This document shows positions 16,529 through 24,144 of a stretch of 64,000 bases of DNA, piece by piece. The position numbers and the translations under genes were made by a program. How positions within the stretch are numbered: position 1 is the stretch's first letter; each line of letters begins with the position of its first letter. Source of the DNA: Cystobacter fuscus (lineage in GTDB: Bacteria > Myxococcota > Myxococcia > Myxococcales > Myxococcaceae); contig NZ_CP022098.1 of assembly GCF_002305875.1 (NCBI RefSeq), positions 6,262,001 to 6,326,000 on the forward strand, given 5' to 3'. Below the pieces are notes generated by a model. It was given only the letters and a program-made list of their open reading frames with translations. It was not told where the DNA came from and searched no databases.

Positions 16529-17674
16529 GTGAACCTCGAACTCACCGAGACCCAGACGCTCATCCGGGACACCGCGCGCAAGTTCGCGCGCGAGCGGGTG
16601 GCGCCCCAGGCGCGCACCTTCGATCGGGAGGAGACCTTCGCCACGGAGCTGTACCGGGAGCTGGCCTCGCTGGGGCTCATGGGGGTGAACATCTCCGCGA
16701 AGTATGGGGGCGCCGAGGCGGGCGTCGTGGCGTACTCGCTGGCGATGATGGAGATGTCGGCGGCGTGCGCGTCGACGTCGGTGACCATGGCCGTCACCAA
16801 CATGTGCGCCGAGCTCATCCACACGTACGGCACCGACGCGCAGCGCGAGAAGTTCGTGACGCGGCTGACGTCGGGCGAGGCGGTGGCGGGCTCGTTCGCG
16901 CTCTCCGAGCCGCACGCGGGCTCGGATCCGCGCGCCATGCGCACCACGGCGGTGCGGCGTGGGGACACGTGGGTGCTCAACGGCAGCAAGCAGTGGATCA
17001 CCTCGGGTGAGTTCGCGGGGGTGATGGTGGTGTGGGCGCAGACGGGAGGGCAGGGGGGCAAGGGCATCTCCGCCTTCATCGTGGAGGGCGGCACGCCGGG
17101 GCTGCACGTGGGCAAGCACGAGGACAAGATGGGCCTGCGCGCGTCCAACACGGTGAGCCTCACCTTCGAGGACTGCGCCATTCCCGCGGACAACCTCCTG
17201 GGCAAGGAGGGGGATGGCTTCAAGCTGGCGATGATCGCCCTGGACGGTGGGCGGATTGGAATCGCCTCGCAGGCGTGTGGCGTGGCCCGGGCGGCGCTGG
17301 ACGCGAGCGTGCGCTACGCGAAGGACCGCAAGGCGTTCGGCCAGGCGATTGGAGGGTTCCAGGGCCTGAGCTTCATGATGGCGAACATGGCCACGGAGCT
17401 TCAGGCGGCGGAGCTGCTCACGCTGCGCGCGGCGACCCTCAAGGAGGAGGGCAAGCCGTTCACCCGCGAGGCGTCCATGGCGAAGCTGTTCGCCAGCGAG
17501 ATGTCCAACCGCGCGGTGGACAAGGCGGTGCAGATCCACGGCGGCTACGGCTACATCGACGAGTTCCCCGTGGAGCGCTACTTCCGCGACGCCCGCGTGC
17601 AGACCATCTACGAGGGCACCAGCGAGGTGCAGCGCCTCGTCATCGCCCGCGAGACGTTCAAGCTGTTCGGCTGA
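16529..17674 (+). CDS. Acyl-CoA dehydrogenase, short-chain type (copy 2)
   Basis: A 381-aa FAD-dependent dehydrogenase starting at GTG 16529. Signatures are GSFALSEPHAGSDPRAMRTT and KAVQIHGGYGYIDEFPVERY. The catalytic Glu362 is in TIYEGTSEVQR. It is clearly a paralogue of the copy at 14870-16012, with similar length and domain order, and may accept a different chain length or branched substrates. It ends 142 bases before the RiPP precursor. Confidence 0.9.
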   Translation: MNLELTETQTLIRDTARKFARERVAPQARTFDREETFATELYRELASLGLMGVNISAKYGGAEAGVVAYSLAMMEMSAACASTSVTMAVTNMCAELIHTYGTDAQREKFVTRLTSGEAVAGSFALSEPHAGSDPRAMRTTAVRRGDTWVLNGSKQWITSGEFAGVMVVWAQTGGQGGKGISAFIVEGGTPGLHVGKHEDKMGLRASNTVSLTFEDCAIPADNLLGKEGDGFKLAMIALDGGRIGIASQACGVARAALDASVRYAKDRKAFGQAIGGFQGLSFMMANMATELQAAELLTLRAATLKEEGKPFTREASMAKLFASEMSNRAVDKAVQIHGGYGYIDEFPVERYFRDARVQTIYEGTSEVQRLVIARETFKLFG

Positions 17675-17752
17675 AGCGCGGAGGTGACACGTCACTCGTC
17701 GAGCCCATCGGGGAACGGCTCCTCGTCAGTCATTGCATCGGTATTGTAACTG

Positions 17753-17781
17753 TTGACAGGGTGTGAAGGGTTTTTTACTCT
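17753..17781 (+). promoter_or_regulatory. Promoter of the RiPP locus
   Basis: TTGACA (17753-17758), a 17-bp spacer, then TACTCT (17776-17781), set in sequence much richer in A and T than the surroundings. The predicted start is near 17788, about 29 bases before the precursor ATG. A GGAGGAA ribosome-binding site lies at 17807-17813. Confidence 0.65.
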
Positions 17782-17816
17782 TTCCTGAGTTCCCCGTTGT
17801 TCTCCCGGAGGAAGTC

Positions 17817-17975
17817 ATGGACCACGACAAGAAGACGCCCAAGCCGGACTCGAAGCTGTCGCTCAAGAAGGAGACGCTGCGCGCTCTCGCCGATTCCGAG
17901 GTCTCGGTGCGCGAAGGCGCGAAGGCGATGAGCTTTACTCGTCCTCCGACGTGGTCTCGTCCTCCGACGTGGTGA
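17817..17975 (+). CDS. Cys-free RiPP precursor with class I lanthipeptide-type leader
   Basis: A 52-aa peptide. Residues 12-24 (SKLSLKKETLRAL) match the leader pattern of class I lanthipeptide precursors from Bacteroidetes and myxobacteria (L-x-L-x-K-x-T-x-x-x-L). The tail has Ser27, Ser30, Ser39, Thr41, Thr45, Ser47 and Thr51 but no Cys. It ends in a duplicated hexapeptide, TRPPTW then SRPPTW, at the very C-terminus. The ATG at 17817 is chosen for its GGAGGAA site five bases away; a GTG at 17763 lies inside the promoter. A LanB dehydratase gene begins 24 bases downstream, so the peptide is its probable substrate. The leader/core boundary is unknown. Confidence 0.75.
   Translation: MDHDKKTPKPDSKLSLKKETLRALADSEVSVREGAKAMSFTRPPTWSRPPTW
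17938..17973 (+). repeat. Perfect 18-bp tandem duplication in the precursor core
   Basis: The unit CTCGTCCTCCGACGTGGT occurs at 17938-17955 and again at 17956-17973 with no mismatch; the last base belongs to the stop codon. It encodes the repeated RPPTW tail. Identity at every base, including third positions, indicates a recent duplication. Confidence 0.95.
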
Positions 17976-17999
17976 GCTGAAGTGGTGGGAACAGCCTGA

Positions 18000-20900
18000 G
18001 TGAGCACTCCTGCTCCTCGGCTGTTGCCCCTCGTGACCGCGTCCATGACTGAATCCCGGCCACTGCCGAGCTTTACCGCTTCGGGATTCTTCGCCCTCCG
18101 CACCCCCCTGCTTGCCTTTGACGCCCTCGTGGAGTGGGCCCGGGGAGTGGAGTCGGCCGACGCGGTCTCTGGAATCACCCTGGAAGATGCACTGAAGCGG
18201 GACCGGCGCGTGCTGCGTGAGCGGCTGATGCGCTGGGTCGCGGATCCCGTGGTGCGCGAGGCCCTCTTCCTCGCCTCACCGGTGCTCGACGAGAGCCTGG
18301 GCGTGTGGGCGTCCGAGCCGGAGTCGGAGCGCGGACAGAAGGTGGAGCGCTCCCTGGTGCGCTATTTCGCGCGCATGGCGGGCCGCGCCACCCCCTTCGG
18401 ATTGTTCGCGGGCCTCTCCGTGGGCCGGATGGATTCACGGACCCGGTTGTGTGTCTCCGAGCGCTCCACTCTTCGCCGCCACACCCGGCTGGACATGGAC
18501 TACGTCTGTGCCCTGGTAGAGCAGGTACGCGTCCTCCCCGAGGTCCGCGATGCCTTGCTCTACGTGCCCAACACCAGTCTCTACCGTGCCGCGGGACGGT
18601 GGCGCTATCTGGAGATGCGGGTGCGCGGGCGCGAGCGCTCCTATCACCTGGTTGGCGTGGAGCCCACGCCCTATCTGGATGCCACGCTGGAGGCGGCCCG
18701 GGACGGCGCGAAGCTGGAGGCACTGGCGGCCGGGCTGGTGGCGAGTGATCCCGAGGTGTCGCTCGAGGAGGCCCTGACCTACCTCGAGACGTTGGTGGCC
18801 GAGCAGCTCCTGGTTCCCACCTGGGCGCCCCCTCTGACTGGCCCCGAGCCCGTGCCCTACCTGCTCGAGGGCGCGCGGGACGTGCCCGGTCTGGCCCCCC
18901 TGAGGCAGTGCTTGTCCGCCGTCCACGAGACCCTGTCCCGGATGGATGCCGGAGCCCCGGGGCATGCGCCCGAGCTCTATCGCGAGCTGGCACGTGGCCT
19001 GGAGGTCCTGCCCACTCCCATCGAGCTGCCCCGCCTCTTCCAGGTGGACACCTTCCGGCCAGTGTCCGAGGCCACCCTGGGTGCGCAGGTGGTGGAGGAG
19101 ATGCTGCGCGGCGTCCAGGTGCTCCAGTCCATCACTCCGCCCGAGGGCGACGAACACCTGCTCAACCGCTTCCGCACCCTCTTCCTCGAGCGCTATGAGA
19201 ACCGCGCGGTGCCGCTGATGGAGGCGCTGGACGAGGAGGGTGGCATCGGCTTCGCGCTCTCCCGGGGACGGGGGACGGGGACCGGCCCCTTGCTGGCGGG
19301 CTTCCTCTTTCCCGGGGAGGACGCGAGCGGCGGCGCGCGGAGCCGTTGGGAGTCCCGCCATCAGTACCTGCTGCGCCGACTGGAGGCGCTCTGGGCCTCG
19401 GGGCTCCAGGAACTGGTGCTCACTCCAGAGGATCTGGAGGCCATGAAGGCTCCGGTGACCAGCCCCCTGCCGGATGCCTTCGGGGTGGTGGGCACGGTGG
19501 TGGCCCGCTCCGCCCAGGCGGTGGACCAGGGCGAGTTCCAGGTAACCCTCGAGCAACTTCATGGTCCCTCGGGTGCCCTGTACCTGGGACGCTTCTGCCA
19601 CGGAGATCCACAGCTGGAGCGCTGCGTGCGCGAGCACCTGCGCGCCGAGGAGGCCCTGCGGCCGGACGCCGTCTTCGCGGAGATCGTCCATCTGCCGCAG
19701 GGCCGCATGGGCAACGTCATCTGCAGGCCCCAGCTGCGGCGCCACGACATCGCCTTCCTCGGGCAGTCGGGCGCCGAGAGAGCCGAATGCATCTCCGTGG
19801 CGGATCTCTGGGTCTCCGTGGAGGGGGAGCGCGTCGTCCTGCGCTCGCGGCGCCTGGGCAAGGAGGTCATCCCCCGGCTGAGCAACGCCCACAACTACGC
19901 GTCCTATGGTCTGGGCGTGTACCGCTTCTTGTGCATGATGCAGAACCCCCACCGCATGGGGCTTCGCTTCCAATGGGGTCCCCTGGGACAGGCGCGTTTC
20001 CTGCCTCGGGTGGTCCATGGTCGAACCGTGCTCTCGCTGGCGACGTGGCGCGTGGACGAAGAGACCCTGCGGCAGTGGAGGAAGACGCGGGGCGCCGAGC
20101 GCTTCGCCGCCGTCCAGCACCTGCGGGCTCGGCTCCGACTGCCGCGCTGGGTGCGTCTGGTGGACGAGGACAACCGGTTGCCCGTGGATCTGGACAATGT
20201 CCTGAGCGTGGAGACGTTCGTGCATCTGGTGAAGGACCGCTCCTTCCTCCAACTGGAGGAGCTCTTCCCGGGTCCCGACGCGCTCTGCGTGGAGGGCGGG
20301 GATGGCCACTACGTGCATGAGGTGGTGGTGCCCTTCGTCCGCCAGGCCTCCTCCAGGGGCTCCGCTTCATCGGCGCTCATTCCCCACGCCGTGCCCCGCC
20401 GCTTTCCTCCGGGCTCCGAGTGGCTGTATCTCAAGCTGTACGGCGGCTCGGCCACGCTGGATCGGTTGATGAGCGGCGTGCTGGGAGACACCCTGCGCCA
20501 TGTGCTGGATTCGGGGGCGGTGGATCGCTGGTTCTTCCTGCGCTACGAGGATCCGAACGTGCACCTGCGGCTGCGCTTCCACGGGACGCCCGCGCGCCTG
20601 GAGTCGGAGGTGTGGCCCGCGCTGCGCGCCGCGTGCGAGGCCAGTCTGGAGGAGGGGACGGGTTGGCGTGTGCAGCTCGACACCTACGAGCGCGAAGTGG
20701 AGCGCTATGGCGGACCGGTCGGCATCGAACTGGCCGAGGAAATCTTCAGCGCCGACAGCGAGGCCGTGCTGGCATTGCTCCAGGCCTACCCCGGGGATGA
20801 AGGGGCGGAAGTGCGCTGGCGCATGGCCCTCAAGGGCATGGATGCGCTGCTGGAGGACCTGGGACTGAGCTTGGAGGACAAGTTGCGTGTGGAAGAGCGG

Positions 20901-21275
20901 GCCCGCGCGGCCTTCCATGCCGAGTTCCGGGTGGACAAGCGTTTCGAGGAGCAGCTTGCTCAGCGCTACCGCCGGGAGAGCCGGGAATTGGAGGCCCTGA
21001 TGGCGGCTTCCCCGGATGTACGCGGTCCAGCGCGGCCGGGGTTGCTGGCGTTGCGGCGCCGCGGCGAGCGGCTGCGGCCCGTGGTGGAACGACTGCGCCA
21101 GACCGAGCGGGAGGGCCGTCTCACCGTCGCGGTGGAACGGCTGGCGGAGAGCTTCCTCCACATGCACGTCAACCGCCTGCTGTCGGAGGATCAACGCGCC
21201 CAGGAACTCATCCTCCATGATTTCCTGGTGCGGCTGTACCGTTCCCGTCTGGCGCGGATGAAGAAGGACTCCTGA
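18000..21275 (+). CDS. Full-length lantibiotic dehydratase (LanB family)
   Basis: A 1091-aa protein with both LanB modules. The N-terminal glutamylation domain spans roughly residues 20-690 and includes the hallmark GRATPFGLFAGL (Arg129 on). The C-terminal elimination (SpaB-C) domain runs from about 800 and includes YLKLYGG, RYEDPNVHLRLRF (Arg857/Arg859) and FLHMHVNRLL (His1054). These correspond to residues needed for glutamate elimination in NisB. The enzyme glutamylates Ser/Thr using glutamyl-tRNA and then eliminates to Dha/Dhb. The GTG at 18000 has a weak ribosome site; an ATG at 18045 is an alternative. No LanC, protease or exporter gene is adjacent. Confidence 0.9.
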   Translation: MSTPAPRLLPLVTASMTESRPLPSFTASGFFALRTPLLAFDALVEWARGVESADAVSGITLEDALKRDRRVLRERLMRWVADPVVREALFLASPVLDESLGVWASEPESERGQKVERSLVRYFARMAGRATPFGLFAGLSVGRMDSRTRLCVSERSTLRRHTRLDMDYVCALVEQVRVLPEVRDALLYVPNTSLYRAAGRWRYLEMRVRGRERSYHLVGVEPTPYLDATLEAARDGAKLEALAAGLVASDPEVSLEEALTYLETLVAEQLLVPTWAPPLTGPEPVPYLLEGARDVPGLAPLRQCLSAVHETLSRMDAGAPGHAPELYRELARGLEVLPTPIELPRLFQVDTFRPVSEATLGAQVVEEMLRGVQVLQSITPPEGDEHLLNRFRTLFLERYENRAVPLMEALDEEGGIGFALSRGRGTGTGPLLAGFLFPGEDASGGARSRWESRHQYLLRRLEALWASGLQELVLTPEDLEAMKAPVTSPLPDAFGVVGTVVARSAQAVDQGEFQVTLEQLHGPSGALYLGRFCHGDPQLERCVREHLRAEEALRPDAVFAEIVHLPQGRMGNVICRPQLRRHDIAFLGQSGAERAECISVADLWVSVEGERVVLRSRRLGKEVIPRLSNAHNYASYGLGVYRFLCMMQNPHRMGLRFQWGPLGQARFLPRVVHGRTVLSLATWRVDEETLRQWRKTRGAERFAAVQHLRARLRLPRWVRLVDEDNRLPVDLDNVLSVETFVHLVKDRSFLQLEELFPGPDALCVEGGDGHYVHEVVVPFVRQASSRGSASSALIPHAVPRRFPPGSEWLYLKLYGGSATLDRLMSGVLGDTLRHVLDSGAVDRWFFLRYEDPNVHLRLRFHGTPARLESEVWPALRAACEASLEEGTGWRVQLDTYEREVERYGGPVGIELAEEIFSADSEAVLALLQAYPGDEGAEVRWRMALKGMDALLEDLGLSLEDKLRVEERARAAFHAEFRVDKRFEEQLAQRYRRESRELEALMAASPDVRGPARPGLLALRRRGERLRPVVERLRQTEREGRLTVAVERLAESFLHMHVNRLLSEDQRAQELILHDFLVRLYRSRLARMKKDS

Positions 21276-21285
21276 GCGAGGACCT

Positions 21286-21978
21286 TCAGCGCCCTCGGGG
21301 AGGTTCCAATCCGAGGGCGGCATCGAGGAGCGCGGCGAGCACGGCGCGAAAGCGCGCGTCGGCCTGAGCGTCCTCGGTTCGCCCGAGCCCCGGCAGCAGC
21401 ACGTGCCGGGCGAGCGTGTACCCCTGCGCCGCGCACAGTCCCACGAGCAGCGTCATCTCCAGGGCCTCGCGAGAGGGGGGCGGCTGCCCTTGCACGGCAG
21501 CGACCCGGCCCACCTGCGCCTCCAGCACATCCATCACCCGGCGCGGACCCTGGTCCAGGGACAGGTGCTCGCCGCGCCCGGTGAGCAGCGCCCACGCCAT
21601 CAGCCGGACGTTCCCCTCGTCCTGGAGGATCGGCGAGAAGAGCTCCAACCACTGGCCGATGTCGGGGGGCTCCCTGGACTCGAGCATCCGTTGCCAGAAG
21701 CCATCCGCCAGCAGCCGGGCCCGACGCTGGAACACCTCGCGCACCAGCGCCTCGTAGGTGCCGAAGTAGTGCGTGACGAGCGCATGGCTCACCCCCGCGG
21801 CGCGCGCCACCGCTTGCAGTCCCACCCCGTCCGGCCCCCGTTCACTCAGCAGCGGCTCGGCCGCCTCGAGGATGGCCTCCCGCGCCTGCTCCGGGGAGCG
21901 GCGCCGCGAGGACGCGGGGGAGGGGGAGCGGGGAGCACGCGGAGTCTTCTCGCGGCGGGTGGGGCGCCTGGTGGCCAT
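21286..21978 (-). CDS. TetR-family transcriptional regulator
   Basis: A 230-aa one-component regulator. After a basic Pro/Ser/Arg-rich N-terminal tail of about 25 residues, the TetR helix-turn-helix is seen in REAILEAAEPLLSERGPDGVGLQAV and AAGVSHALVTHYFGTYEALV. The C-terminal two thirds is helical and variable, as expected for the ligand domain. The gene converges on lanB with 10 bases between the stops. Its target is unknown; it could control itself, genes upstream, or the RiPP locus. Confidence 0.85.
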   Translation of the reverse strand: MATRRPTRREKTPRAPRSPSPASSRRRSPEQAREAILEAAEPLLSERGPDGVGLQAVARAAGVSHALVTHYFGTYEALVREVFQRRARLLADGFWQRMLESREPPDIGQWLELFSPILQDEGNVRLMAWALLTGRGEHLSLDQGPRRVMDVLEAQVGRVAAVQGQPPPSREALEMTLLVGLCAAQGYTLARHVLLPGLGRTEDAQADARFRAVLAALLDAALGLEPPRGR

Positions 21979-22285
21979 CGCGCACGAACCTACCTTCCGC
22001 CCCCTCCCGCCATGCGTCCCTCATTGGCGGGGATGACAACGAGCCGACGCTTGTTGGCAGCCGTGACAGCGAATGCGCGCGAAAAACCCGGGGTCCGCTC
22101 TGGATCCGAGCCGCTCGGCTGATCGCCCTGCGACCAGGGACCAATGATCCGCATGCATCGAGACCCACCAGGACCTACAGTCCCGCCAAGGCACGAAACC
22201 TCCTTATGAGCCTCTTCGTGGGTCACGAAGGACGCTTGGCGCCGCGACGGTATTGACAGATCCAGAAGCCTGGCCGCGTGCTCCC
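21979..22285. other. Intergenic region between tetR and the rpsA promoter
   Basis: This stretch of about 300 bases carries no convincing coding sequence in any frame. It should contain the TetR-gene promoter on the minus strand and perhaps its operator. A TTGACA at 22253-22258 has no acceptable -10 at 16-18 bp. I see no long palindrome or repeat here. Confidence 0.5.
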
Positions 22286-22315
22286 TTGACTGCCGGTCCA
22301 ACCGGTGTCTAGGGT
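22286..22315 (+). promoter_or_regulatory. Promoter of rpsA
   Basis: TTGACT (22286-22291), an 18-bp spacer, then TAGGGT (22310-22315). The predicted start near 22322 gives a leader of about 113 bases, unusually long for this window and containing a strong hairpin. Confidence 0.5.
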
Positions 22316-22354
22316 GCGCGGCTTCGAGTCAGCTCCACTGTGGTGCTGATCGCG

Positions 22355-22382
22355 GGCCACTCGTAGCTCCCCGCGAGTGGCC
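22355..22382 (+). promoter_or_regulatory. Hairpin in the rpsA leader
   Basis: GGCCACTCG (22355-22363) pairs perfectly with CGAGTGGCC (22374-22382) around a 10-nt loop, ending 52 bases before the rpsA ATG. No uridine run follows, so it is not a terminator. S1 is known to repress its own translation through leader structure in enterobacteria; whether this hairpin does so is inference. Confidence 0.5.
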
Positions 22383-22434
22383 GACGTCCAACAACCGGGG
22401 GCAGTAGCACCGTTTCCCAAGGATTCCCTACCAA

Positions 22435-24144
<1,710 letters not shown>

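Follow-up and report, generated by a model that had tools for sequence, protein, structure and literature searches.

The analyzed stretch of DNA (64 kb, hereafter the window), which belongs to a soil myxobacterium, contains a short peptide gene followed by a gene for a LanB dehydratase, and it is considered moderately probable that these form a two-gene RiPP insert in which LanB would dehydrate the Ser/Thr residues of a Cys-free core carrying the RPPTW motif, with no subsequent ring closure. A dehydrated, unringed product would be the likeliest outcome. According to the proposed mechanism, LanB would bind the leader of the precursor and glutamylate the core Ser/Thr residues from Glu-tRNA, and elimination of glutamate would leave Dha/Dhb in SFTRPPTWSRPPTW. 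The product would be linear or closed by other chemistry, a thioether requiring Cys, and genes located elsewhere would be needed for leader removal and export. Such a system would correspond in its working to the first half of the class I lanthipeptide pathway.

Precursor Peptide and Leader

The precursor gene (17817–17975, + strand) encodes a peptide of 52 aa (MDHDKKTPKPDSKLSLKKETLRALADSEVSVREGAKAMSFTRPPTWSRPPTW*) with the C-terminal end SFTRPPTWSRPPTW and seven Ser/Thr residues from S27 onward; the core contains two Ser and two Trp. These coordinates, the translation, and the Ser/Thr count agree with the sequence-only reading of this DNA, whose statement that no thioether can form within the core was also borne out, because the 52 aa include no Cys. 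A ribosome-binding-like stretch, GGAGGA (17807–17812, + strand), was found in the sequence 4 bases upstream of the ATG.

A conserved leader block, KLSLKKETLRALADSEV (17853–17903, + strand), was located using a leave-one-out profile. With the profile of 37 blocks from which the window peptide had been left out, the precursor scored 32.0 bits (E-value = 3.8 × 10−9), and the runner-up among the 1012 stop-to-stop stretches of the window scored 4.7 bits. This bears out the earlier assignment of the leader to the class I lanthipeptide type and indicates that the likeness is no chance match. The NCBIfam profile NF038153 matched the precursor with an E-value of 0.0013 and 18.9 bits, under its 22-bit cut-off; matches to this profile were found in 17 of 195 genomes, in 14 of which they exceeded the cut-off. 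The precursor has no GG before the core. No whole-length homologues were found among 39 relatives and 145 genomes, and a comparison of 301 bases of the window DNA with 96 genomes gave short matches, the best of which lay within the leader block.

The position upstream of LanB would also suit an RNA element acting on LanB, the peptide being merely a leader ORF. However, the fold of 17785–18065 was scarcely better than those of shuffled sequences (z = −1.23), and the leader and core motifs are conserved as protein, which makes such an element very improbable.

LanB Enzyme

Domain search identified the product of the LanB gene (18000–21275, + strand) as a full-length dehydratase of 1091 aa with Lant_dehydr_N and Lant_dehydr_C domains (PF04738, E-value = 1 × 10−169, and PF14028, E-value = 1.1 × 10−70), both in one protein. 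The start is possibly the ATG at 18045, which by eye matches the N-terminus of the LanB of locus L067 better (MTESRPLPSFTASGFF vs. MNESPPRTGFSASGFF). The LanB gene does follow the peptide gene, as had been claimed earlier, whereas the 24-base gap then given holds only with the GTG start at 18000.

The closest solved chains were 9g04, 5ehk, and NisB. Residues R83, R87, T89, D121, R464, R784, R786, E823, R826, Y827, H961, H963, and R966 of NisB are identical in the window LanB (R464 and E823 being positions that we take to be important), T122 is replaced by Met, and Y80 corresponds to Y122 of the window LanB by counting within the same ungapped block. According to the accessible text of PMC4341554, the Y80F and H961A changes in NisB abolish dehydration, changes at R83 and R87 reduce it, those at T89 and R784 have a mild effect, and those at D121, Y827, and R966 have little effect; the same paper lists R786 and R826 among the important residues. 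Since the window enzyme is full length and its key residues are conserved, it should be active.

Insertion Site and Gene Neighborhood

The left edge of the insert is formed by an acyl-CoA dehydrogenase gene (16529–17674, + strand), which is syntenic in relatives, and the right edge by a TetR-type regulator gene (21286–21978, − strand). The latter does not belong to the peptide/LanB pair, because genome G001 has TetR without either the peptide or LanB. The next gene presumably encodes a ribosomal protein S1-like product, and genes of fatty-acid metabolism lie downstream of this region. Six genomes of genus g8 resemble the window up to the end of the dehydrogenase gene and again from approximately 200 bases further on, some 160 bases upstream of the S1 gene. 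In genomes G001 and G002, the spot is occupied by two other genes, which we take to encode an AAA-type ATPase and its small partner, and no trace of the peptide or LanB was found there (tblastn, E-value = 1). The comparison indicates that the peptide and LanB genes are an insert in the window lineage comprising these two genes only. Together with loci L168 and L169, positions 17675–21285 represent a variable spot between the acyl-CoA dehydrogenase and TetR genes.

No LanC gene was found within the 64-kb window, and neither a transporter or protease gene nor any further modifying gene was found in the insert. The window also gave no match above 100 bits to the transporter of L067, and a promoter scan of 17600–22500 found none. 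The two stand-alone LanCs of the window genome adjoin other LanBs; in the window peptide, which has no Cys, LanC would find no thiol to add. Dehydro residues beside the two core Trp would be reactive, and a product cross-linked by non-thioether chemistry, for example, at Trp, was therefore considered; nevertheless, the insert has no further modifying gene, and this outcome is regarded as improbable.

We expect cyclases of the pyritide and thiopeptide type to match PF14028, but all three matches to this Lant_dehydr_C domain in the genome sit in full-length LanBs (3/3). This argues against a pyritide-like pyridine ring formed from two Dha, an outcome that we regard as highly improbable even though the window core has two Ser and, according to the available part of PMC11002830, LanC-less, Cys-free clusters with truncated LanBs have yielded pyritides.

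RPPTW Motif and Its Homologues

The motif S-F-T-R-P-P-T-W (17931–17954, + strand) recurs as S-x-T-R-P-P-T-W in leader-like peptides of genomes G109 (MNTKKKLVLKVEIVRILVDPQPAVQAGPCSSTRPPTWAGAPDQA) and G090 (MNEKKKLTLNVETIRLLSPRQSPPQNAPCSATRPPTWAGVPEQA), which belong to two genera other than that of the window. These peptides are 44 aa each, with a mutual identity of 61%, and both align to the window precursor in the leader and tail together, sharing the leader-like KL-x-L start. With the leave-one-out leader profile, the G090 and G109 peptides scored 17.6 and 3.6 bits, respectively; neither had an NCBIfam match at an E-value of 10. The E-values of the motif matches were 0.005 and 0.094 per genome, and at 0.1 some match occurred in 18 of 145 genomes, which is about the chance level; the two were counted because they agree with the window peptide in leader, spacing, and motif and are, in addition, conserved with respect to each other. 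It should be noted that bare TRPPTW is not rare enough to count alone, because it also appears at four loci close to the S1 gene (L160, L163, L165, and L173), in readings that look out of frame. The TRPPTW codons are ACT CGT CCT CCG ACG TGG in the window and ACC CGG CCG CCG ACC TGG in G109; four of the six differ, all synonymously, as would be expected if the protein motif has been kept. Thus, the motif singled out earlier is real. A search mainly of the open literature for TRPPTW, RPPTWA, or RPPTWS returned one unrelated paper only.

The two homologous genes (L376:18168–18302 in G109 and L375:9045–9179 in G090) encode stand-alone peptides with CS(S/A)TRPPTWAG(A/V)P(D/E)QA. No LanB or LanC gene was found in approximately 9 kb read on each side in G090 or in 18 kb read on one side in G109, where less than 1 kb of contig remains on the other side; it is possible that these peptides are substrates in trans. 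Two of the outcomes that the earlier reading had named as speaking against it were thus partly obtained: both homologues carry Cys directly before the motif, at the position of Met38 of the window precursor, and no LanB was found in the stretches read. The variation in RPPTW copy number that had been anticipated was limited to a single copy in either homologue vs. two in the window. Because the homologues carry Cys at the Met38 position, Cys would have been lost in the window form, which probably arose by this loss together with doubling of the motif unit.

That the G109 and G090 homologues keep Cys is also compatible with the main rival of the LanB-dehydration account, namely, that the pair is a relic of a lanthipeptide system that has lost Cys, LanC, and the transporter, so that it is productless or its LanB serves other peptides in trans. 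The decayed LanB beside a Cys-free precursor at L324 and the separation of LanB from the rest of the cluster in G002 point the same way. However, the window LanB is full length with its key residues conserved, the frame of the core has been kept open, and the motif is conserved; on balance, a relic seems unlikely, although it deserves to be taken seriously.

Tandem Repeats and the Reading Frame of the Tail

TRPPTW and SRPPTW are encoded by an 18-bp tandem duplication (17938–17973, + strand), which repeat analysis confirmed to be exact, as previously described. It is the sole exact full-copy tandem with a period of 15–60 in the window, and no such tandem arose in 10 Markov simulations. Directly upstream of the core lies an 8-bp exact tandem repeat, GCGCGAAG, in 2.4 copies (17909–17927, + strand); its unit, between leader and core, is not a multiple of three, and slippage there would alter the frame of the core. 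Among 56 precursor ORFs, a non-triplet tandem repeat was found in that of the window only.

These features raise the question of whether the RPPTW tail results from a frameshift, in which an additional 8-bp unit displaced a Ser-rich core with SSSDVV repeats that is readable in the other frame. A non-triplet repeat absent from the other 55 precursor ORFs is in line with this, as are the rare codons of the tail (TTT, ACT, CGT, CCT, and TCT) and the scores per codon, which were +0.35 for the other frame vs. −0.97, the window tail being the worst of the 56 ORFs; codon position statistics on the tail gave a count of 2/4581. However, the G109 and G090 homologues, which are plainly coding, likewise favor the other frame (0.26 vs. 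−0.31 in one and 0.18 vs. −0.27 in the other), because all the codons used for R, P, T, S, and W have a middle G or C. When the same residues were written with host codons, the mean difference was 0.52, and the observed 1.32 was reached in 0.93% of draws and in 2 of 52 host windows built of such residues. Composition accounts for much of the frame signal, leaving a remainder of rare codons, expressed by those 0.93% of draws. Since the motif is kept in the annotated frame across the homologues and, by the control, most of the signal stems from the residues themselves, a shifted frame was judged improbable, though not to the degree of the RNA element or the pyridine ring.

LanC and Cys in LanB Loci of the Order

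Within the order, 46 of 145 genomes contained LanB homologues (E-value = 1 × 10−30), with at most five candidates scored per genome, and 61 LanB loci (the window, L067–L086, and L117–L156) were searched for leader-bearing ORFs and LanC. A recognized precursor was present within 2.5 kb in 35 of the 61 loci; the other 26, left out, include eight LanC-less loci (L075, L076, L120, L146, L150, and L153–L155), some of them cut by contig ends. Among the 35 loci, Cys-free cores occurred in 4/4 LanC-less and 0/31 LanC-bearing loci, every core of the latter containing Cys (Fisher test without regard to kinship, p = 1.9 × 10−5); the leader profile was trained on the surveyed loci themselves, and several LanC-bearing loci are near-copies. 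The Cys-free cores numbered 1/1 in the window, 2/2 in L067, 3/4 in L072, and 6/7 in L074, the exceptions in L072 and L074 being one core each with a single Cys. A 56-aa precursor whose core contains CTC, missed by the leader profile, occurs at the LanC-less L120, which changes the count to 4/5. In a tree of 42 LanBs, from which L118 (a near-copy of L117) and L239 (no usable LanB frame) were left out, three changes were needed, giving two to three independent contrasts (sign test, p = 0.5); the two contrasts on supported branches were both in the expected direction. Taken together, the sequences suggest that myxobacterial LanB loci without LanC tend to have Cys-free precursors.

By the tree, the LanB nearest to that of the window is the LanC-less L067. 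Its genome, G100, has no stand-alone LanC and three LANC_like matches in frames of 989–1112 aa; in G119, which likewise has no stand-alone LanC, the frames of the three LANC_like matches are at least 964 aa long. Cys-free leader-like peptides were also found approximately 2.6 kb from the LanC-bearing LanB of L083 (E-value = 0.67, above the cut-off) and 5.7 kb from that of L073, beside a decayed LanB. In G002, a lone LanB (L076) lies approximately 2.4 Mb from L328, a cluster without LanB that contains LanC, a luciferase-like gene, a Cys-bearing precursor, and a transporter; local absence of LanC is consequently not proof of its absence from the system. A distant LanB locus, L209, obtained from a scan of named genomes, has two Cys-free precursors, and the 17 kb read of its 32-kb contig revealed no LanC.

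Comparison with Known Systems

The window system resembles class I lanthipeptides (nisin and maddinglicin) in leader type (NF038153, below the cut-off) and full-length LanB, and differs from them in that the peptide has no Cys and the insert has no gene for LanC, a transporter, or a protease. The promiscuous prochlorosin synthetase, unlike LanB, is a class II enzyme, and its Cys-free peptides belong to a larger set. As a lanthipeptide synthetase with natural Cys-free substrates, it is nevertheless comparable (PMC11251773, accessible part). The RPPTW peptides of G109 and G090 share the KL-x-L start and S-x-T-R-P-P-T-W with the window precursor and differ in the Cys before the motif, the single copy, and the absence of LanB from the stretches read. 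L067, L072, and L074 are similar in their mostly Cys-free precursors beside a full-length LanB without LanC, whereas their precursors carry GG leaders and cores rich in Thr/Ile/Val, and HlyD and C39-ABC genes are present at these loci. The window system also differs from C39-processed double-glycine precursors, having no GG and no C39-ABC transporter match, and its likeness to proline-rich antimicrobial peptides appears limited to the RPP repeats. The earlier statement that no described class combines these features was too strong, since the available text of PMC11002830 describes LanC-less clusters with Cys-free precursors (pearlins and pyritides); however, those have truncated LanBs, whereas the full-length window LanB has both domains fused. 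By the features tested, the window system would be classed neither as a lanthipeptide, having no Cys and no LanC, nor as a pearlin or pyritide.

In a search mainly of the open literature, no publication came up in which a full-length LanB acts on Cys-free precursors in the absence of LanC. According to the accessible part of PMC7268733, a large lanthipeptide survey started from LanC-like proteins and dropped ORFs whose core had no Cys; any system with LanB only and a Cys-free precursor was thereby bound to escape it. As a tentative suggestion, these loci may belong to an overlooked myxobacterial RiPP pathway in which a LanC-free, full-length LanB would convert Cys-free cores, often with repeats, into linear dehydroamino-acid peptides, and in whose RPPTW branch the motif would be the active unit, moved between genomes and, in the window, stripped of Cys and multiplied. 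The window, L067, L072, L074, and L209 provide ready test pairs for LanB alone making finished products. The RPPTW motif connects a LanB-paired Cys-free peptide with stand-alone Cys-bearing ones, so that the loss of Cys is testable.

Related Loci in Other Genomes

Several further loci were recorded during the analysis. The LanC-less LanBs of L074 (3888–9410, seven precursors) and L072 (four precursors) in genomes G112 and G119 are surrounded by arrays of precursors related to one another, which have GG leaders and mostly Cys-free cores rich in Thr/Ile/Val. The precursors of L209 (10155–10745, MAG Myxococcales nzgw251) are Arg/Pro/Ser-rich with a class I-type leader, and one has RP(L/V)SSV(K/R)P repeats; L274, the best place among the 63 of 195 genomes with weak matches to the L209 peptide searched, proved to be an unrelated frame and was rejected as a homologue. 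In G120, an ASCTCF precursor (L120:6216–6386) adjoins a LanC-less LanB; the leader of this precursor is similar to that of the RPPTW peptide in G090. The decayed LanB of G114 (L324:2790–4332; 358 aa, with large parts missing) has a Cys-free peptide with a leader as its neighbor. At L111 (G001) and L083:11341–11844 (G003), leader-like peptides continue downstream into Gly/Arg repeats without Cys.
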